NCBI RefSeq assembly: GCF_000166775.1 | Contig: NC_014720.1 | Location: 955,501-1,019,500, forward strand | DNA length: 64,000 nucleotides | Source: Caldicellulosiruptor kronotskyensis 2002 | GTDB lineage: Bacteria > Bacillota > Thermoanaerobacteria > Caldicellulosiruptorales > Caldicellulosiruptoraceae | Direction: 5' to 3' | Shown here: piece after piece, positions 12,794 to 46,688 of the stretch | How positions within the stretch are numbered: position 1 is the stretch's first letter | Layout of the letters: every line of letters starts with the position of its first letter | The notes under the pieces: generated by a model | Seen by the model: the letters and a program-made list of their open reading frames with translations, nothing else | Told to the model about the DNA's origin: nothing | Databases searched by the model: none | Made by a program: the position numbers and the translations under genes

Positions 12794-12813
12794 AATATCA
12801 TCAAAATAATAAA

Positions 12814-12965
12814 CTTCATAGGCTGAATGTCTGAGCAAATTGTAAAAATTGCTCAGACAGCGGGAGACCCAAAGTAAGTCAGGGGTGAATCGGCAAGAAA
12901 GAATTTGCCGTAGGGATAGCCTTCTTGTCCCGAACCCGTCAGCTAATCCCGTAAGCCTCAAGAAG
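12814..12965 (+). ncRNA. ydaO/yuaA c-di-AMP riboswitch
   Basis: The leader contains the conserved ydaO blocks in order: GGCTGAAT (12821), GCGGGAGACCCA (12859), GGGGTGAATC (12882), AGGGATAG, CCCGAACCCGTCAGCTAA (12929) and CCCGTAAGCC. P1 pairs AGGCT 12820-12824 with AGCCT 12954-12958. The class binds c-di-AMP and typically turns off cell-wall hydrolase and osmolyte genes, and the next gene is an NlpC/P60 hydrolase. The gene's ribosome binding site (AGAAGGGAG, 12961-12969) overlaps the 3' edge of the aptamer, which points to translational control here. Confidence 0.93.
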
Positions 12966-12976
12966 GGAGTTTTTGT

Positions 12977-13936
12977 ATGAATCTAAAAAGTTTAATAGCT
13001 ATAATTCTTGGAATTTTTTTGATGTTTTTTTCTGCAAAGGCCTTTGCCCAGTCAGCCCAGGCAAAATCTACAATAAATATAAGAAGTGCACCTTCAACAA
13101 GTAGTAAGGTTTTAGGTGTTTTTCCCAAAGGGTTTAAAGCCCAGGTTTTGTCAAATGCAGGTGGATGGGTAAAGATTTCGTATGATGGAATTGTTGGGTA
13201 TGTAAAGTCTGATTACATAACTATTACAAATGGAAAAAGGAGCGCAGTTTCAAATACTTCAAGGGCAAGTGTTGCAAAAACGCCTGCTAAAGCTGCGCAA
13301 GCTACAGTTTTAAAAGACAATGCGCGACTGAGAACTGATATGTCAACCACATCAAAGGTGCTAAAGACATTAAAAAATGGTAGCAAGGTGTATGTCCTGT
13401 CAAGAGAACAAAATGGCTGGGTGAAGGTAAAGACGCTTGATGGCACAGTAGGATATATGGCTTATTACCTTTTGAAGATGCCATCGCAGCTTGTATCAAA
13501 AACAGTGTCACGTGGTGGGTTTGAAAGAAGTCAAGTAGAAACTTTTACAAATCTTAGCTTGGCACAGAGAATTTTGGAATTTGCTCAAAGATTTCGTGGT
13601 ATAAGATACTCATACGGTGGAACATCGCCATCAACTGGTTTTGACTGTTCAGGATTTGTTCAGTTTGTGTTCAAAAACTTTGGAATAAATTTAGAAAGAA
13701 CAGCAGCTGACATGGCAAAAACAAATGGTGTGAGAGTTTCATATAGTGAAATTAAACCGGGAGATTTGCTTTTCTTTGACACAGATGGCGGGAAAAATTA
13801 TATAAATCATGTTGGCATATATTTAGGTGGTGGCAAGTTCATTCATGCATCAAGTGCAAGGGGACGTGTAACAGAAACTGACCTAAATTCATATTATGGA
13901 AGATTTTTTATGATGGCAAAAAGAGTCATAAGATGA
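12977..13936 (+). CDS. Secreted SH3-SH3-NlpC/P60 peptidoglycan endopeptidase
   Basis: 319 residues. Signal peptide ~1-25 (cleaves near AFAQS), two bacterial SH3 domains (~28-80 and ~110-163; SAPSTSSKVLGVF and TDMSTTSKVLKTL), then an NlpC/P60 domain (~190-319). The catalytic Cys224 is in GFDCSGFVQF; His278 (NHVGIYLGGG) and His290 (FIHASS) complete the site. It cuts peptide stems of peptidoglycan outside the cell. Controlled by the c-di-AMP riboswitch directly upstream. Confidence 0.95.
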   Translation: MNLKSLIAIILGIFLMFFSAKAFAQSAQAKSTINIRSAPSTSSKVLGVFPKGFKAQVLSNAGGWVKISYDGIVGYVKSDYITITNGKRSAVSNTSRASVAKTPAKAAQATVLKDNARLRTDMSTTSKVLKTLKNGSKVYVLSREQNGWVKVKTLDGTVGYMAYYLLKMPSQLVSKTVSRGGFERSQVETFTNLSLAQRILEFAQRFRGIRYSYGGTSPSTGFDCSGFVQFVFKNFGINLERTAADMAKTNGVRVSYSEIKPGDLLFFDTDGGKNYINHVGIYLGGGKFIHASSARGRVTETDLNSYYGRFFMMAKRVIR

Positions 13937-21672: not shown

Positions 21673-23385
21673 TTGCCAAGAGAAAGAAAGAGAATTGGAG
21701 ATGTTTTAGTAGAGGCAAAGATAATTACACCTCAGCAACTGGAAGAAGCACTTAAAATTCAAAAGCAGACCAATAAAAAATTGGGAGAGATACTGGTTGA
21801 GAAAGGTTATATAACAGAAGATGAGTTAATAGAGATTTTAGAGTTTCAGTTAGGGATACCGCACATAAAATTAGATGTATATCCGATTGATCCTAAGGCA
21901 GTTGAAACGATTTCTGAGTCGATTGCACGAAGGCATACCGTTTTGCCGGTAAGTTTTGCTGAAGATGGAAGCCTGATTGTGGCAATGGCCGACCCGCTCA
22001 ACATATTTGCTATGGAGGATATTGAGATTTATTCAGGCAAAAGAGTACGACCACGAATCGCCAAGGCATCCGATATTAAACGTGCAATTGAAAGGTTCTA
22101 TGGTAAGCAAGAAGCTTTAAAAGCAGCTGAAGAGTTGCAAAAAGAAAGTAGCGAAAAGGACAGCCAAGCCAAAAGAGCTACTGTTACGCCTCGATTCCAG
22201 CTTGGTTTGGAAGACGGAACAGAAGGACCTATTGTAAGACTTGTCAATTCGATTTTTGAACAAGCTATTACATCGCGTGCAAGCGACATTCACATTGAAC
22301 CGTTTGAGAACGAGATAAAAGTCAGATACAGAATAGATGGTGTATTGTATGATGTCTTGAAGTTAGATATTGGGATATTGCCATCACTGGTGGCAAGAAT
22401 TAAGATTGTAGGTAATATGGACATTGCAGAAAAGAGGATACCACAGGATGGACGAACAACTTACATTTTTTCGGATAAGATTTATGACATGAGAATCTCA
22501 TCTTTGCCCTGTGTGTATGGCGAAAAGATTGTTGTGCGTGTGATAGACAAAAGTGCATTTGTGCGTTCTAAAGCTGAGCTTGGCTTGACTGAAGAGGACG
22601 AAGAGAAATTTAACAAGCTGATTGCTGCGCCACATGGAATAATCTTGGTATGTGGTCCTACCGGTAGTGGTAAATCTACTACGCTTTATACTATTTTAAA
22701 CGAACTTAATACAGGAACACGCAACATAATAACTGTTGAGGATCCTGTCGAAAGTACCATAGAAGGTATTAATCAAGTAGAGGTCAATACCAAAGCAGGG
22801 CTAACATTTGCAGCGGCGCTGAGATCAATCTTGCGACAGGACCCAGATATAATTATGATTGGTGAGATCCGAGACAGAGAGACAGCTGACATGGCAATCA
22901 GGGCTGCTATTACAGGACATTTAGTGTTGTCAACCATTCATACAAATGATGCAGCAAGTGCAATTACAAGGTTGGTTGACATGGGGATAGAAAACTTTTT
23001 GATAAGCTCGTCGTTGGTAGGAGTAATATCACAGAGATTGATAAGAAAACTATGTCCATACTGTAAAGAGCCTTATGAGCCATCAGAGGAAGAAAAAATT
23101 CTTCTTGACATAAAGCAAGATGAGAATGTAAAATTATACAGAAAGAGAGGATGTCATATATGTGATAAAAAAGGTTACTATGGTAGAACAGGTGTATATG
23201 AAATTCTGATTGTGACAAAAGAGTTGAGAAAACTTATAAACAAAAAAGATGTCAGCAGTGAGGAGATAAAGGAACTTGCTGTCAAACAGGGGATGAAGAC
23301 ACTGCGACAAGCTTGCAAAGAGAGAGTTTTGAATGGAATTACATCAGTTGAAGAATATCTTAAGATTACTTATGCACTTGAATAG
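21673..23385 (+). CDS. pilB: Type IV pilus extension ATPase PilB with MshEN domain
   Basis: 570 residues, TTG start after GAGGGGAG. Residues 7-30 and 36-59 are tandem MshEN motifs (RIGDVLVEAKIITPQQL and KLGEILVEKGYITEDEL), a fold known to bind c-di-GMP in MshE-type ATPases. The GspE/PilB ATPase follows: Walker A GPTGSGKSTT near 328, Asp box, Walker B IIMIGEIRDRET, His box, and a zinc tetracysteine (CPYC...CHIC). It drives pilin polymerisation at the inner membrane face. The first MshEN motif lacks the usual glycine (AK for xG), so ligand binding must be tested. Confidence 0.95.
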   Translation: MPRERKRIGDVLVEAKIITPQQLEEALKIQKQTNKKLGEILVEKGYITEDELIEILEFQLGIPHIKLDVYPIDPKAVETISESIARRHTVLPVSFAEDGSLIVAMADPLNIFAMEDIEIYSGKRVRPRIAKASDIKRAIERFYGKQEALKAAEELQKESSEKDSQAKRATVTPRFQLGLEDGTEGPIVRLVNSIFEQAITSRASDIHIEPFENEIKVRYRIDGVLYDVLKLDIGILPSLVARIKIVGNMDIAEKRIPQDGRTTYIFSDKIYDMRISSLPCVYGEKIVVRVIDKSAFVRSKAELGLTEEDEEKFNKLIAAPHGIILVCGPTGSGKSTTLYTILNELNTGTRNIITVEDPVESTIEGINQVEVNTKAGLTFAAALRSILRQDPDIIMIGEIRDRETADMAIRAAITGHLVLSTIHTNDAASAITRLVDMGIENFLISSSLVGVISQRLIRKLCPYCKEPYEPSEEEKILLDIKQDENVKLYRKRGCHICDKKGYYGRTGVYEILIVTKELRKLINKKDVSSEEIKELAVKQGMKTLRQACKERVLNGITSVEEYLKITYALE

Positions 23386-34206: not shown

Positions 34207-34309
34207 GGCATATATCGAAAGGGCAAACCTGTCGAAAGGCAGGGGCGCAAAGCCATGGGCCTGTCGGAAGAAAATCTTCCTATGGTTGCCAGGCTGCCGA
34301 AGATATGCC
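34207..34309 (+). ncRNA. Class I c-di-GMP (GEMM-I) riboswitch aptamer, tapirin 2 leader
   Basis: Conserved GEMM-I blocks are all present: AAAGGGCAAACC, a GAAA tetraloop (CTGTCGAAAGGCAG), GGGGCGCAAAGCCATGGGCCT, a variable P3 hairpin (GGAAG...CTTCC), and TATGGTTGCCAGGCTGCCG. P1 pairs GGCATAT 34207-34213 with ATATGCC 34303-34309. It lies between the two tapirin genes and is followed by a terminator. Nearly the same core occurs at 40845-40944 before celA. Confidence 0.95.
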
Positions 34310-34343: not shown

Positions 34344-34373
34344 GGCATCTGGCAACCGTCAGATGCCTTTTTT
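34344..34373 (+). terminator. Riboswitch terminator before tapirin 2
   Basis: GGCATCTG (34344-34351), 8-nt loop, CAGATGCC (34360-34367), then TTTTTT. The strand 34344-34357 can instead pair with aptamer bases 34284-34298 (14 bp, one bulge), forming an antiterminator. This makes c-di-GMP binding favour termination. Confidence 0.9.
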
Positions 34374-34450
34374 ATATCCATTGTTATTTGGAGTTTTAAA
34401 GGGTTAATGAGTTATTAATGAAAAATAAAAGCACAAAGGGAGTGAATAGT

Positions 34451-36400
34451 ATGATTATAATAAATAGAATTACTTTTAATCCAAAAATACTAAAAACTAA
34501 TATAAGAGGAAGCACCTTAATTGTTGTAATAATAGTGATTGCTATTTTGAGCACGGTATTACTGGGGACGATGTCGGCTGTGTTAGCATCGCTGAACCAG
34601 AGCACATCTATATATCAGAAATCTGCAACAGGTTATGGAGCTGAAAGTGCGGCAGAGGAGTTTTTATATTATTTTAATCAATTATTGGAGGCTGCAAAGG
34701 ATATAGCATATGATTATTATTACAAAGCGGATGGGACACTGGAAAATACAAGTCCTGGTAGAGTAAGATTGTTATTGGGGGACGAGAGTTACGAACCGGG
34801 GAAGATATTAGATGATTTGCGACACGGGAGGATAACTCAAGATGTAGCAAAGGACAAGGTGTATAAAGGTATGGAAGCGATAATAAAGGATGAGGTAAGT
34901 CGGTTTATGAATGATGTGGGCAGTGATGCTTCTGTAAAGGTAGAATCTTTACCGTTGAAGGAGTTTAAGAAGTTATCTGACTTGGTACAATTATGGATAA
35001 AACCCCATTATGAGGGTTTGACTGGATATAAATTTGATGGTATTACAGTTAATGCATGGTCAGGTGTGACAAGAAGTTCTCTACCTGACGGTTATACCAT
35101 TTACATTGATGTTTCTAAAACAAGAGCTGTAACTTCGTCAGATAAAGAAGTAAAAAGAACATTGCGATTAGACTTTAAAATACTTTCAAGTAGCCCTAAT
35201 AGTCTGGAAAGTGTTATATCGATCGGGACTATAACTCTTGCGTCTTCAATATTTAACTTATTCGACTATGCACTATATACTAATGGGAACTTTGTGGCAA
35301 ATGTCAACTTTACCATAATAGGTGGGAATGTGCATACAGGTGGTGATTTACAATCACATGGTGGTCTGCAAACTGACATTAATAATTTAGTGGTAATGGG
35401 TGAGTTATCACTGGGTGTGAACGGTAATCCACAAGTTCGCGAAGACAATGTAAAAGTGAACAATGTAACTTATATTAGGTCAAATTTGAGAAGAACAGGT
35501 GTTGGAGATAGAAATATTAGCTTGCAGATGGGTAAAACGTACGTGGGGGGAAATGCGGAATTATATGGTAGAGGTAGATATGAGTTCGATGAGTTATACT
35601 GCGATGGGGATGTCATAGTTAAAGGTAGTATAGCAAATGCGGTAGATGTTGTAATAAAGAAAATAGGAGTAATCAGAGGTGTGCTAAGAATACAGGATCA
35701 GGGGACAGTTACAATAAAATCTGGTGCGGTAGTATATTGCGATTCGATTCAGTTTTTGAACAATCCAACTACGTTAGTAATAGAAAATGGCGCAACCGTT
35801 GTGACGAGGATGCCGCCTGACTACAGTCGGATTGTTAATTCAGGTGGAATTATAAATGTAGCACCTTTTATTCCATATCCACCTTTACCTCAAATAATAA
35901 GTGATATAAGAAATTTTAATTTTCCTAATAGTACAAGTATACCATCGATAACACCCCATGACTCAGTTCCACCAGCATCAATTGACAGTGCTGCAGATAT
36001 TTCAAAGTCACCTCCGCAGGTTGTAGTTATTGGAGAAAATTGTGATGCTGGTGAAATTGAAGTTGAGATTAAAAACAGGTTAGCAAGCATTGGCGTTTCA
36101 CCAGTTCCAAGTCCACTACAATTGCATGTTTTTGCAAGAAACAACATTACTATTTCAGTGGGAACGAGAATATTAAATGGTCAATTGATTGCGTTAGGTA
36201 ATACTCTTAATATAAATAGTTCGGGCGGGAGTCCATTTGATGGTGTTATATTAATATATGGCTCACCGAGTTCACTCATTCAGAATCAGATAACAAATAG
36301 TACTGGATATGTTCCACCTGTAACGATGTCCAGTCGAAGAGATACAATTCAAAGCGGTACTCTGTATAGGGTAGTAAGAAGAAGTATTGTTGTTAAATAA
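34451..36400 (+). CDS. Tapirin-like cellulose adhesin 2 (c-di-GMP riboswitch controlled)
   Basis: 649 residues from ATG 34451, chosen for AAAGGGAG 8 nt upstream; ATG 34418 lacks a good site. Same plan as tapirin 1: PilX-like anchor, an identical ~130-residue module, a similar middle, then a beta-helix that is clearly diverged (~270-649). It is separated from tapirin 1 by its own riboswitch and terminator, so its expression can be set apart from the pilus operon. The two adhesins probably differ in substrate surface. Confidence 0.82.
   Translation: MIIINRITFNPKILKTNIRGSTLIVVIIVIAILSTVLLGTMSAVLASLNQSTSIYQKSATGYGAESAAEEFLYYFNQLLEAAKDIAYDYYYKADGTLENTSPGRVRLLLGDESYEPGKILDDLRHGRITQDVAKDKVYKGMEAIIKDEVSRFMNDVGSDASVKVESLPLKEFKKLSDLVQLWIKPHYEGLTGYKFDGITVNAWSGVTRSSLPDGYTIYIDVSKTRAVTSSDKEVKRTLRLDFKILSSSPNSLESVISIGTITLASSIFNLFDYALYTNGNFVANVNFTIIGGNVHTGGDLQSHGGLQTDINNLVVMGELSLGVNGNPQVREDNVKVNNVTYIRSNLRRTGVGDRNISLQMGKTYVGGNAELYGRGRYEFDELYCDGDVIVKGSIANAVDVVIKKIGVIRGVLRIQDQGTVTIKSGAVVYCDSIQFLNNPTTLVIENGATVVTRMPPDYSRIVNSGGIINVAPFIPYPPLPQIISDIRNFNFPNSTSIPSITPHDSVPPASIDSAADISKSPPQVVVIGENCDAGEIEVEIKNRLASIGVSPVPSPLQLHVFARNNITISVGTRILNGQLIALGNTLNINSSGGSPFDGVILIYGSPSSLIQNQITNSTGYVPPVTMSSRRDTIQSGTLYRVVRRSIVVK
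34521..34914 (+). repeat. 394-bp perfect direct repeat, copy 2
   Basis: Copy of 32160-32553 within tapirin 2. Perfect identity at the DNA level, including silent sites, indicates recent duplication or gene conversion. Confidence 0.93.
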
Positions 36401-39449: not shown

Positions 39450-39863
39450 GTTCAACACCAAACCTAAACAACTTTCATTTTTAGATTTATTCTCCCACCT
39501 AAAGGCTTTGGTTTCTTAACAACTCTTGATACCCTCTTGGGCTTGTTCAATAAATTCATCGACTTGTCAAACTACATACCTTCTTCTTTCTATAATGCTT
39601 ACTATAAACACTTTGGCAAGCATAGATACTTCTCCTTAGAATCTATGCTTCTGTGCTTCCTTGTCCAAAAATTACTCAAACTAAATACCCTTACACAGCT
39701 TCGCGCTGTTCTTCTTAACTCTTATGAACTCCGTTTATTTTGTAACTTAAATGGCAATGTCCCCTCTATTTCTACTTTCTCTCGCTTCAGAAAACTATTT
39801 AACAGTGAAATCGGGAGTTATAAAAATTGTGTCCATTGCATAATTATTATTACAATAATATAA
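39450..39863 (+). pseudogene. Truncated, frameshifted transposase (5' part)
   Basis: ATG 39450 after a GAGGAGAG site reads MFNTKPKQLSFLDLFSHLK, then must shift frame near 39503 to continue GFGFLTTLDTLLGLFNKFID and on to ISTFSRFRKLF. This is the N-terminal region of an IS1182/IS5-type transposase (DUF772-like). It stops after ~130 residues. Not functional. Confidence 0.7.
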
Positions 39864-40373: not shown

Positions 40374-40712
40374 GCAGAAGGGCATGTAAGTCATGTATTA
40401 GCAGAGAGGATGAGTTCAAGACCAAGAGGATGGAGTGAAGATATAGCAGAGACCATGGTAAAGTTATTGAGTTTAAAATACAATGGTTTTGAACTTATGA
40501 ATGTATATTTAGAGAAGATAAAAGCCAAGAAAGCAGAAAGGCAAGAAGTTAAAAGAAATAGCAAAAGGAATTATAAAGAACGGGAAAAGAGTACGAAAAG
40601 GTACGGAAAAGTGGAATAATATACCAGTTATAGCAAATGGTAAAGTTAACCAGTTACGAAGAGCATTAAAGTCTTTGATTAGTTGTAGCTTCTATAATGC
40701 AGGTATGTTCTA
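40374..40712 (+). pseudogene. C-terminal relic of an ISLre2-type transposase
   Basis: From 40374 the frame reads AEGHVSHVLAERMSSRPRGW, typical of ISLre2 (UPF0236) C-termini. A frame change near 40615 continues IPVIANGKVNQLRRALKSLI to a stop. The 5' part is missing. Confidence 0.65.
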
Positions 40713-40765
40713 ATAAAAAATTTTTTCCTACAAACTCTTGACACTATCCCGTTGAAAAAGATTAG

Positions 40766-40794
40766 TTGACAAATTACTGAGTTAATGATATAAT
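40766..40794 (+). promoter_or_regulatory. Consensus sigmaA promoter for the celA riboswitch leader
   Basis: TTGACA (40766-40771), 17-bp spacer, TATAAT (40789-40794): a perfect consensus. Transcription would start near 40801, ~45 nt before the aptamer, giving a ~700-nt celA leader. It lies just after the ISLre2 relic. Confidence 0.82.
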
Positions 40795-40844
40795 TCATAT
40801 TAAAAGAAAGTATGATAAAACATAAAAAAAATTGAATATGAAGT

Positions 40845-40944
40845 GGGTAGTCGAAAGGGCAAACCTGTCGAAAGGCAGGGGCGCAAAGCCATGGGCCTGT
40901 CGGAAGAAAAACTTCCTATGGTTGCCAGGCTGCCGAAACTACTC
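40845..40944 (+). ncRNA. Class I c-di-GMP (GEMM-I) riboswitch aptamer, celA leader
   Basis: From TCGAAAGGGCAAACC (40851) to GGTTGCCAGGCTGCCG (40920-40935) it matches the tapirin 2 aptamer almost base for base. P1 differs but still pairs: GGGTAGT (40845-40851) with ACTACTC (40938-40944), covariation that supports a real RNA. A terminator follows 28 nt later. Between terminator and celA (41004-41498) I found only AT-rich leader. Confidence 0.95.
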
Positions 40945-40972
40945 GAGGTGTGAAATATTTGATGAGTGGTTT

Positions 40973-41003
40973 AAAACGGCGTCTGGCAAGGCGCCGTTTT
41001 TTT
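40973..41003 (+). terminator. Riboswitch terminator before celA
   Basis: AAAACGGCG (40973-40981), 10-nt loop, CGCCGTTTTTTT (40992-41003). Bases 40977-40989 can pair with aptamer 40922-40935 (13 bp, one U bulge) as an antiterminator. Stem sequence differs from the tapirin 2 terminator, yet both keep complementarity to the same aptamer strand. Confidence 0.92.
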
Positions 41004-41498
41004 AGTACATGTAAAAAATTAAAAAAAAGAAATAACTATGTATATTCTTCTGTAACACTGAAAAAGCTATCCCCTAACCCCCTCTTTTAACATACATTAC
41101 ACTAGGCATTGGCTGCCATTGATTGGCAGCCAATATTTAACCTTGTATGAACAACAAAAAATTTATTATCACTTCCTAATTTAATCAATAAAATATAACA
41201 ATTATTTTCACGTCGAATAAATTTATTTGGTTTCCACTTAACAACTTAATATCATGTTGTATTTTTTTGACTCACGATAGAGCAAAATAATACAAATTAT
41301 TAGAAACATTTATACTATAATTTTGCAATAAAAAAAATATCAGAAATATGAGTATATCTAAGTAATCAAAAATATTTAAGCTGTACTGCATTTTAGACAA
41401 TTAAACAAACAAATTAGACAAAAAAAATCAATTGTCATCTATCCATTTTAGTTATACAATTAAAATCGAAATAAATTGAATGAGGAGGTTAGAGATTA

Positions 41499-44400
41499 AT
41501 GAAGCGTTACAGAAGAATTATTGCCATGGTTGTAACCTTCATATTTATTTTAGGAGTGATATATGGGGTTAAACCATGGCAGGAGGTTAAAGCTGGTTCA
41601 TTTAACTATGGGGAAGCTTTACAAAAAGCTATTATGTTTTACGAATTTCAAATGTCTGGTAAACTTCCGAGTTGGGTACGCAACAACTGGCGTGGCGATT
41701 CAGCATTGAAGGATGGTCAAGACAATGGACTTGATTTGACAGGTGGTTGGTTTGATGCAGGTGATCATGTCAAGTTTAACCTTCCAATGTCATACACTGG
41801 TACAATGTTGTCATGGGCTGTGTATGAGTACAAAGATGCTTTTGTTAAGAGTGGTCAATTGGAACATATCTTAAATCAAATCGAATGGGTTAATGACTAT
41901 TTTGTAAAATGTCATCCAAGCAAATATGTATACTATTACCAGGTTGGGGATGGAAGTAAGGATCATGCATGGTGGGGGCCTGCTGAGGTTATGCAAATGG
42001 AGAGACCTTCATTTAAGGTCACCCAGAGCAGTCCTGGATCTACAGTAGTAGCAGAGACAGCAGCTTCCTTAGCAGCAGCTTCAATTGTTTTGAAAGACAG
42101 AAATCCCACTAAAGCAGCAACATATTTGCAACATGCAAAAGATTTATATGAGTTTGCAGAAATTACAAAAAGCGATGCAGGTTACACTGCTGCAAATGGA
42201 TATTACAATTCATGGAGCGGTTTCTATGATGAGCTTTCTTGGGCAGCAGTTTGGTTGTATTTGGCAACAAATGATTCAACATATCTCACAAAAGCTGAGT
42301 CATATGTCCAAAATTGGCCCAAAATTTCTGGCAGTAACACAATTGACTACAAGTGGGCTCATTGCTGGGATGATGTTCACAATGGAGCGGCATTATTGTT
42401 AGCAAAAATTACCGGCAAGGATATTTATAAACAAATTATTGAAAGTCACTTAGATTACTGGACTACAGGATACAATGGTGAAAGGATTAAGTATACACCA
42501 AAAGGATTAGCATGGCTTGATCAATGGGGTTCGTTGAGATATGCAACAACTACAGCATTTTTGGCATTCGTTTATAGCGATTGGGTTGGCTGTCCAAGTA
42601 CAAAAAAAGAAATATATAGAAAATTTGGAGAAAGCCAGATTGATTATGCGTTAGGCTCAGCTGGAAGAAGCTTTGTTGTTGGATTTGGTACAAATCCACC
42701 AAAGAGACCGCATCACAGAACTGCTCATAGCTCATGGGCAGACAGTCAGAGTATACCTTCATATCACAGACATACATTATATGGAGCGCTTGTTGGTGGT
42801 CCAGGCTCTGATGATAGCTACACAGATGATATAAGTAACTATGTGAACAATGAGGTTGCATGTGATTATAATGCAGGGTTTGTGGGTGCATTAGCAAAGA
42901 TGTATCAATTGTACGGTGGGAATCCAATACCAGATTTCAAAGCTATTGAAACTCCAACAAACGACGAATTCTTTGTTGAAGCTGGTATAAATGCATCCGG
43001 AACTAACTTTATTGAAATTAAAGCGATAGTTAATAACCAAAGTGGTTGGCCTGCTAGAGCAACAGATAAGCTTAAATTTAGATATTTTGTTGACCTGAGT
43101 GAATTAATTAAAGCAGGATATTCACCAGATCAATTAACCTTGAGCACTAATTATAATCAAGGTGCAAAAGTAAGTGGACCTTATGTATGGGATGCAAGCA
43201 AAAATATATACTACATTTTAGTAGACTTTACTGGCACATTGATTTATCCAGGTGGTCAAGACAAATATAAGAAAGAAGTTCAATTCAGAATTGCAGCACC
43301 ACAGAATGTACAGTGGGATAATTCTAACGACTATTCTTTCCAGGATATAAAGGGAGTTTCTAGTGGTTCAGTTGTTAAAACTAAATATATTCCACTTTAT
43401 GATGGAGATGTGAAAGTATGGGGTGTGGAACCAGGAACTTCTGGAGCAACAACGACTCCAACACCAACACCAACTGCTACACCAACACCAACGCCAACAT
43501 CGACACCGACGCCAACACCAACACCTACACCTACACCATCACCAACTCCAACTCCAACACCGACAGTGACACCAACCCCAACCCCAACCCCGACACCAAC
43601 AGTAACAGCAACACCAACACCGACGCCGAGCAGCACACCTGTAGCAGGTGGGCAGATAAAGGTATTGTATGCAAACAAGGAGACAAATAGCACAACTAAT
43701 ACGATAAGGCCATGGTTGAAGGTAGTGAACACTGGAAGCAGCAGCATAGATTTGAGCAGAGTAACGATAAGGTACTGGTACACGGTAGATGGGGACAAGG
43801 CACAGAGTGCGATATCAGACTGGGCCCAGATAGGAGCAAGCAATGTGACATTCAAGTTTGTGAAGCTGAGCAGTAGCGTAAGTGGAGCGGACTATTATTT
43901 AGAGATAGGATTTAAGAGTGGAGCTGGGCAGTTGCAGGCTGGTAAAGACACAGGGGAGATACAGATAAGGTTTAACAAGAGTGATTGGAGCAATTACAAT
44001 CAGGGGAATGACTGGTCATGGATGCAGAGCATGACGAATTATGGAGAGAATACGAAGGTAACTGCGTATATAGATGGAGTATTGGTATGGGGACAGGAGC
44101 CGAGTGGAGCGACAGCGGCACCAGCACCGACAGTGACACCGACACCAACATCAACACCAACACCGACGCCGAGCAGCACACCTGTAGCAGGTGGGCAGAT
44201 AAAGGTATTGTATGCAAACAAGGAGACAAATAGCACAACAAACACGATAAGGCCATGGTTGAAGGTAGTGAACACTGGAAGCAGCAGCATAGATTTGAGC
44301 AGAGTAACGATAAGGTACTGGTACACGGTAGATGGGGACAAGGCACAGAGTGCGATATCAGACTGGGCCCAGATAGGAGCAAGCAATGTGACATTCAAGT

Positions 44401-46688
44401 TTGTGAAGCTGAGCAGTAGTGTAAGTGGAGCGGACTATTATTTAGAGATAGGATTTAAGAGTGGAGCTGGGAAGTTGCAGGCTGGTAAAGACACAGGGGA
44501 GATACAGATAAGGTTTAACAAGAGTGACTGGAGCAATTACAATCAGGGGAATGACTGGTCATGGATGCAGAGCATGACGAATTATGGAGAGAATACGAAG
44601 GTAACTGCGTATATAGATGGAGTATTGGTATGGGGACAGGAGCCGAGTGGAGCGACAGCGACACCGACACCTACACCAGCACCAACTCCAACTCCAACTC
44701 CAACAGTAACACCTACCCCAACACCAACGTCAACACCAACCCCGACACCAACAGTAACAGCAACACCAACACCGACGCCAAGCAGCACACCGGGTGTGCT
44801 TGGCGAATATGGGCAGAGGTTTATGTGGTTATGGAACAAGATACATGATCCTGCGAACGGGTATTTTAACCAGGATGGGATACCATATCATTCGGTAGAG
44901 ACATTGATATGCGAAGCACCTGATTATGATCATTTGACCACGAGTGAGGCATTTTCGTACTATGTATGGTTAGAGGCAGTGTATGGTAAGTTAACAGGTG
45001 ACTGGAGCAAATTTAAGACAGCATGGGACACATTAGAGAAGTATATGATACCATCAGCGGAAGATCAGCCGATGAGGTCATATGATCCTAACAAGCCAGC
45101 GACATACGCAGGGGAGTGGGAGACACCGGACAAGTATCCATCGCCGTTGGAGTTTAATGTACCTGTTGGCAAAGACCCGTTGCATAATGAACTTGTGAGC
45201 ACATATGGTAGCACATTAATGTATGGTATGCACTGGTTGATGGACGTAGACAACTGGTATGGATATGGCAAGAGAGGGGACGGAGTAAGTCGGGCATCAT
45301 TTATCAACACGTTCCAGAGAGGGCCTGAGGAGTCTGTATGGGAGACGGTGCCACATCCGAGCTGGGAGGAATTCAAGTGGGGCGGACCGAATGGATTTTT
45401 AGATTTGTTTATTAAGGATCAGAACTATTCGAAGCAATGGAGATATACGGATGCACCAGATGCTGATGCGAGAGCTATTCAGGCTACTTATTGGGCGAAA
45501 GTATGGGCGAAGGAGCAAGGTAAGTTTAATGATATAAGCAGCTATGTAGCGAAGGCAGCGAAGATGGGAGACTATTTAAGGTATGCGATGTTTGACAAGT
45601 ATTTCAAGCCATTAGGATGTCAGGATAAGAATGCGGCTGGAGGAACGGGGTATGACAGTGCACATTATCTGCTATCATGGTATTATGCATGGGGTGGAGC
45701 ATTGGATGGAGCATGGTCATGGAAAATAGGGAGCAGCCATGTGCACTTTGGATATCAGAATCCGATGGCGGCATGGGCATTAGCGAATGATAGTGATATG
45801 AAGCCGAAGTCGCCGAATGGAGCGAGCGATTGGGCAAAGAGTTTGAAGAGGCAGATAGAATTTTACAGGTGGTTACAGTCAGCGGAGGGAGCGATAGCAG
45901 GAGGCGCGACAAATTCATGGAATGGCAGATATGAGAAGTATCCAGCAGGGACAGCAACATTTTATGGAATGGCATATGAACCGAATCCGGTATATCATGA
46001 TCCTGGGAGCAACACATGGTTTGGATTCCAGGCATGGTCTATGCAGAGGGTAGCGGAGTATTACTATGTGACAGGAGATAAGGACGCAGGAGCACTGCTT
46101 GAGAAGTGGGTAAGCTGGGTTAAGAGTGTAGTGAAGTTGAATAGTGATGGTACGTTTGCGATACCGTCGACGCTTGATTGGAGCGGACAACCTGATACAT
46201 GGAACGGGGCGTATGCAGGGAATAGCAACTTACATGTTAAGGTAGTGGACTATGGTACTGACTTAGGAATAACAGCGTCATTGGCGAATGCGTTGTTGTA
46301 CTATAGTGCAGGGACGAAGAAGTATGGGGTATTTGATGAGGGAGCGAAGAATTTAGCGAAGGAATTGCTGGACAGGATGTGGAAGTTGTACAGGGATGAG
46401 AAGGGATTGTCAGCGCCAGAGAAGAGAGCGGACTACAAGAGGTTCTTTGAGCAAGAGGTATATATACCTGCAGGATGGACAGGGAGGATGCCGAATGGAG
46501 ATGTAATAAAGAGTGGAGTTAAGTTTATAGACATAAGGAGCAAGTATAAACAAGATCCTGATTGGCCGAAGTTAGAGGCGGCATACAAGTCAGGGCAGGC
46601 ACCTGAGTTCAGATATCACAGGTTCTGGGCACAGTGCGACATAGCAATAGCTAATGCAACATATGAAATACTGTTTGGCAATCAATAA
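41499..46688 (+). CDS. celA: CelA: GH9-CBM3c-CBM3b-CBM3b-GH48 cellulase
   Basis: 1729 residues, ATG after GAGGAGG. Signal peptide ~1-32; GH9 ~35-470 with DAGDH at 86-90 (base Asp89) and acid Glu452 in [13 protein letters not shown]3c ~475-645; Pro-Thr linker; CBM3b ~714-870; linker; CBM3b ~896-1053; linker; GH48 1098-1729 with EAPDYDH and TTSEAFSYY, which carry the family glutamates. The architecture equals the known processive CelA of Caldicellulosiruptor, a secreted enzyme combining endo- (GH9) and exo- (GH48) attack on crystalline cellulose. It is the first gene behind the c-di-GMP riboswitch leader. Confidence 0.97.
43639..44115 (+). repeat. CBM3b module repeat (first of ten near-identical copies)
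   Basis: A ~475-bp block starting near GGGCAGATAAAGGTA and ending at GTATGGGGACAGGAGCCG recurs near 44185, 47903, 48512, 52593, 53172, 56951, 57601, 61892 and 62568. Copies differ at few bases, mostly silent. Each encodes a cellulose-binding CBM3b flanked by CCAACACCGAC-type Pro-Thr linker DNA, itself a length-variable microsatellite. Confidence 0.92.

Follow-up and report, generated by a model that had tools for sequence, protein, structure and literature searches.

Predicted c-di-GMP-I riboswitches before the cellulase gene celA and a tapirin gene of Caldicellulosiruptor

Organization of the celA leader

The window, the 64-kb stretch of DNA analysed here, is taken from the 2.84-Mb genome (G000) of a hot-spring bacterium that feeds on cellulose, whose celA (GH9-CBM3-GH48), tapirin and type IV pilus genes are in keeping with Caldicellulosiruptor/Anaerocellum. 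It contains celA, whose product is central to thermophilic cellulose degradation without cellulosomes. The transcriptional start inferred for a distal promoter, at about 40801, precedes the celA ATG at 41499 by approximately 698 nt, and the last 495 bp or so of this leader, between an intrinsic terminator and the gene, contain strongly conserved islands. The following features were recognized.

40766-40794, + strand: distal promoter TTGACA-17-TATAAT, matching the consensus at 12/12 positions, with an extended -10 TG
40845-40851, + strand: 5' strand of helix P1, GGGUAGU, pairing with 40938-40944 (fold of the transcript to 40945)
40848-40937, + strand: c-di-GMP-I (GEMM-I) aptamer of the celA leader (RF01051, 81.9 bits)
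40922-40935, + strand: aptamer 3' strand UUGCCAGGCUGCCG, doubling as the antiterminator 5' strand (duplex search)
40936-40972, + strand: anti-P1 hairpin AAACUACUC/GAGUGGUUU, lying within the antiterminator (folds, orthologue comparison)
40973-41003, + strand: intrinsic terminator AAAACGGCGUC-UGGCAA-GGCGCCGUUUU with U-run, its 5' arm being the antiterminator 3' strand (sequence, folds)
41048-41092, + strand: nearly invariant 45-bp block TTCTGTAACRCTGAARAAAGCTATCCCCTAACCCCCTCTTTT (7/7 celA leaders)
41108-41134, + strand: conserved inverted repeat TTGGCTGCC..GGCAGCCAA without T-run (z -3.8)
41393-41421, + strand: direct repeat TTAGACAA-N13-TTAGACAA, candidate activator site (0.97 conservation)
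41432-41460, + strand: candidate proximal promoter TTGTCA-17-TACAAT, sigma-70-like (7/7 celA leaders, 17-bp spacing)
41499-46688, + strand: celA, encoding a GH9-CBM3x3-GH48 cellulase (Pfam)

An initial annotation of this DNA had placed a perfect consensus promoter, a complete GEMM-I aptamer and an intrinsic terminator, in that order, within a celA leader of about 700 nt, and all of these elements were recovered. Besides the distal promoter, no 12/12 match occurs in the 64-kb window, where 0.01 would be expected by chance, and this promoter scores 10-12/12 in six of the seven orthologous celA leaders, as TTGACA with either TATAAT or TACAAT. The covariance model RF01051 matched 40848-40937 over its full length (1-87/87) with 81.9 bits (E 1.4e-14) against a gathering cut-off of 35 bits, and no additional Rfam families were found in 40700-41520. 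In the predicted fold, the aptamer is closed by the seven pairs of P1 (GGGUAGU/ACUACUC), and alignment to the RF01051 consensus and A1 located the G of the GGCAAA core, the A of CGCAAAG and the terminal GCC, which we take to be the bases that contact c-di-GMP. The identity of 40848-40937 as a c-di-GMP-I riboswitch aptamer is confirmed at the level of sequence, and binding of the ligand is predicted. The terminator stem, which carries the loop UGGCAA and a U-run at 40997-41003, folds at about -16 kcal/mol and is kept in all seven celA leaders; a simple terminator scanner listed none.

Downstream of the terminator, the core of the block at 41048-41092 and the TTAGACAA direct repeat, for which 0 occurrences are expected in the window, are each present as a single copy in the genome, and the notion that either represents a dispersed element was consequently rejected. 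The proximal promoter, absent from the initial annotation, follows the consensus TTGNCW-17-TAYAAT over the seven celA leaders; a transcript starting at its inferred site (about 41467) would have a 5' UTR of approximately 32 nt and would not include the riboswitch. The region upstream of the distal promoter bears mobile-element scars between the tapirin gene and celA, namely a DUF772 transposase fragment at 39537-39863 and a second degenerate gene remnant at 40400-40760 that stops just 5' of the promoter.

Alternative folds of the leader

A search for duplex partners of the aptamer 3' strand at 40922-40935 ranked the terminator's 5' arm first (-22.3 kcal/mol; p 0.003 relative to shuffled sequences); UUGCCAGGCUGCCG pairs with the terminator 5' arm and loop, CGGCGUCUGGCAA, at 40977-40989, while the 3' strand of P1 pairs with GAGUGGUUU at 40964-40972 to form the nested hairpin. 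The resulting antiterminator is the minimum-energy fold of the celA leader at both 37 and 55 C, and at 55 C also of transcripts ending at 40985, 40991 and 40996. The same partnership was recovered in 26/26 leaders belonging to three orthologous groups, with p <= 0.027 for each leader against dinucleotide shuffles, values that are mutually dependent among orthologues. The terminators differ among the three groups (CGGCGTCTGGC, GGCATCTGGC and GGCACCTGGC) with their complementarity to the aptamer 3' strand kept. Pairing in the nested hairpin is likewise maintained despite sequence change, as with AACCU/AGGUU vs AACCA/UGGUU, a covariation given descriptively, without pair counts, and with two celA subgroups offset by one base.

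Under energy models extrapolated to 70 C, the antiterminator was predicted to form with a probability of at least 0.82 in 25/25 leaders of the genus before the 3' arm of the terminator is made, and locking of the aptamer was predicted to raise the probability of the terminator to about 1. With the full leader at equilibrium, most celA and small-protein leaders prefer the terminator even without ligand, and hence the OFF logic requires co-transcriptional timing. In each of the 26 leaders, the terminator and the aptamer have no sequence in common, and the antiterminator shares strands with both. A terminator accompanied by a mutually exclusive antiterminator built on aptamer strands is the arrangement expected of an OFF riboswitch, and c-di-GMP should therefore cause termination; the initial annotation had given no direction of switching.

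A twin before tapirin and the distribution of the arrangement

A nearly identical and complete twin of the aptamer, which the initial annotation lacked, lies further upstream in the window, before a gene for tapirin, a cellulose adhesin.

34213-34302, + strand: second c-di-GMP-I aptamer (RF01051, 82.1 bits; RF03167, 70.6)
34344-34373, + strand: terminator of the twin, GGCATCTGGC..GTCAGATGCC TTTTTT, able to pair with the 3' strand of its aptamer
34418-36400, + strand: tapirin gene (PDB 6n2b, E 5e-82; 4wa0, E 3e-61)

No strong promoter candidate was found between the tapirin terminator and the tapirin gene, and thus the predicted switch, judging from the two leaders, probably controls tapirin more strictly than celA. 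A third c-di-GMP-I copy, likewise new to the annotation, resides outside the window, where it precedes the gene of a small secreted protein and neighbours a GGDEF gene.

RNAs of the c-di-GMP-I class were found in 13/13 genomes of the family. The celA copy is present in seven of the eight family genomes that carry GH48; the eighth, G007, also of the genus, contains just one c-di-GMP-I RNA, and this is remote from its GH48 genes. Six genomes, those with close orthologues of the window tapirin, have the tapirin copy, and in one of them (G008) the tapirin gene is interrupted. The celA leader of G003 (L015) is chimeric, resembling the small-protein copy on its 5' side and the celA copy on its 3' side, and it looks like the product of recombination between riboswitch copies; inspection revealed no clear P1 helix in it, and a distal promoter was likewise not found.

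In other bacteria, none of 80 loci encoding CelA-like GH9 enzymes had a c-di-GMP RNA nearby (within flanks of mostly <=10 kb, some shorter), and a sample of 398 genomes of the phylum contained nine with GH48 outside the genus, none of which had a c-di-GMP-I RNA near GH48, with six of the nine carrying such RNAs elsewhere. As far as this sample goes, the arrangement is thus confined to the genus. What sets it apart within an established riboswitch class is an unusual, genus-restricted pair of targets, a cellulase and a cellulose adhesin. A search of the open literature found no published c-di-GMP riboswitch in Caldicellulosiruptor.

The c-di-GMP-I RNA L023 (G010) seems to have a translational expression platform: one of its hairpin segments, CTCCTTATATGGAGT, matches the reverse complement of the ribosome-binding region, ACTCCATATAAGGAG, at every position. 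In L005, from a genome of a sister genus (G012), A replaces G (TAGCAAAC) at an Rfam column where the celA copy (UAGUCGAAAGG-GC-AAACC) and the other copies of the genus have G. It is the only such copy, and a change at this position is known to shift specificity towards cGAMP.

The proposed switch, its alternatives and its setting

The modelled folds make it probable that the celA riboswitch functions as a transcriptional OFF switch on the distal promoter. RNA polymerase starting near 40801 would first produce the aptamer. Without c-di-GMP, pairing of 40922-40935 with 40977-40989, and of the P1 3' strand with 40964-40972, would generate the long antiterminator and permit read-through towards celA; with c-di-GMP bound, P1, P2 and P3 would be locked, the terminator arm would be free and transcription would stop at about 41003. 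The proximal promoter would bypass this switch, such that the share of transcription tuned by c-di-GMP would probably be partial for celA and larger for tapirin.

The initial annotation had proposed that c-di-GMP sets the expression of celA and of any co-transcribed enzymes. A riboswitch on a transcript directed at celA has the backing of the covariance model and of conservation in seven genomes, and co-transcription fits the published operon celA1-celB1-X-celA2-celB2-celC. Sole control by the riboswitch does not stand, given the candidate promoter that follows the terminator in 7/7 leaders. A fair reading of the leader is that celA may have two inputs, a distal one gated by c-di-GMP and a proximal one responding to an unknown factor, and that riboswitch control is probably partial, tuning expression rather than setting it. 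It is quite conceivable that this part is minor, with nearly all celA mRNA arising from the proximal promoter under an unknown activator at the TTAGACAA repeat and the distal unit yielding an attenuated RNA of about 200 nt with slight read-through. Conservation of the proximal promoter and upstream repeat in all seven leaders points in this direction, as does L015, which retains the proximal promoter without P1 or a distal promoter. Mapping of 5' ends in the close relative C. bescii provides further support: 329 bp was the longest 5' UTR mapped for a carbohydrate operon, and therefore any celA start mapped there falls downstream of 41003; the celA locus was described as without a dedicated regulator, motifs for unknown factors were reported in the celA1 promoter region, and the locus (GDL) was up 4-7 fold on cellulose or xylan (PMC8579813). 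The distal promoter may thus be weak or silent, given that no published leader exceeds 329 bp among the mapped operons. Against a minor role, six genomes have kept the aptamer, antiterminator and distal promoter, conserved islands persist between the terminator and proximal promoter, and the main text of the mapping study, which covered 83/100 operons, does not say if celA was included (PMC8579813).

The direction and ligand of the switch have also to be considered. As a messenger, c-di-GMP usually promotes adhesion, and an ON switch, in which bound c-di-GMP would prevent termination and raise both celA and tapirin expression, would fit a role in attachment. Such a switch has a precedent in Bc2 of Bacillus thuringiensis, before a collagen adhesin (PMC4933901), but in the present leaders it is the antiterminator and not the terminator that shares strands with the aptamer (26/26), locking of the aptamer leads to the terminator in the predictions, and no structure that would let the bound aptamer block the terminator was found among the leader folds; we regard an ON switch as unlikely. 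GEMM-I variants with a G-to-A change at a ligand-contacting position are known, and the aptamer might in principle sense another cyclic dinucleotide, as does the 3',3'-cGAMP variant of GEMM-I. This is very improbable for the celA copy, as it and the other copies of the genus have G at the relevant column, and measurements in the genus have shown c-di-GMP itself.

The aptamer sequence and fold and the terminator-type platform are those of other c-di-GMP-I (GEMM-I) RNAs in RF01051, from which the present copies differ in having a CelA-type cellulase and tapirin as targets in one bacterial genus. A close parallel is Vc1 of Vibrio cholerae, a c-di-GMP-I RNA before gbpA, which encodes a chitin-binding LPMO and hence, like the genes here, a secreted binder of an insoluble polysaccharide, and which is induced at low c-di-GMP, as predicted here; however, Vc1 was reportedly not needed for the inhibition of gbpA by c-di-GMP, and bacterium, substrate and platform differ (PMC4545359). 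Bc2, upstream of the adhesin Cap, resembles the tapirin copy in combining a c-di-GMP-I RNA and a terminator before a surface adhesin, but was shown experimentally to be an ON switch whereas the Caldicellulosiruptor one is predicted to be OFF (PMC4933901). Bc1 of the same species shares a long expression platform and differs in its dual terminators 28 bp apart, in place of one terminator and a second promoter; it is also a caution that conservation of a c-di-GMP riboswitch does not guarantee a response in vivo (PMC11218506).

The genome holds six GGDEF and three EAL domains. Within the locus, a type IV pilus ATPase (21673-23385) contains an MshEN domain, a type that binds c-di-GMP elsewhere, and this ATPase is, by analogy, a possible protein-level input for c-di-GMP. 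Low levels of c-di-GMP were measured in pure cultures of C. saccharolyticus and C. kronotskyensis, both cellulolytic, against higher ones in C. owensensis, which forms biofilms; one co-culture showed c-di-GMP increasing together with residual sugar (PMC4342205, PMC9933333). A scheme in which adhesin and cellulase are expressed at low c-di-GMP, and both are shut off at high c-di-GMP, would be compatible with an OFF switch. We suggest only tentatively that c-di-GMP may enter a single locus at three levels, the pilus ATPase, tapirin and CelA, as a signal of sugar repletion to let go of cellulose that would shut down adhesin and cellulase together; if true, this would be the reverse of the usual pro-attachment role of c-di-GMP. 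A second-messenger RNA on both a cellulose adhesin and CelA would link attachment with hydrolysis, and the riboswitch would offer strain engineers a defined element to remove. The window also includes a c-di-AMP (ydaO/yuaA) riboswitch at 12811-12972 (88.6 bits), before an open reading frame at 12977-13936.
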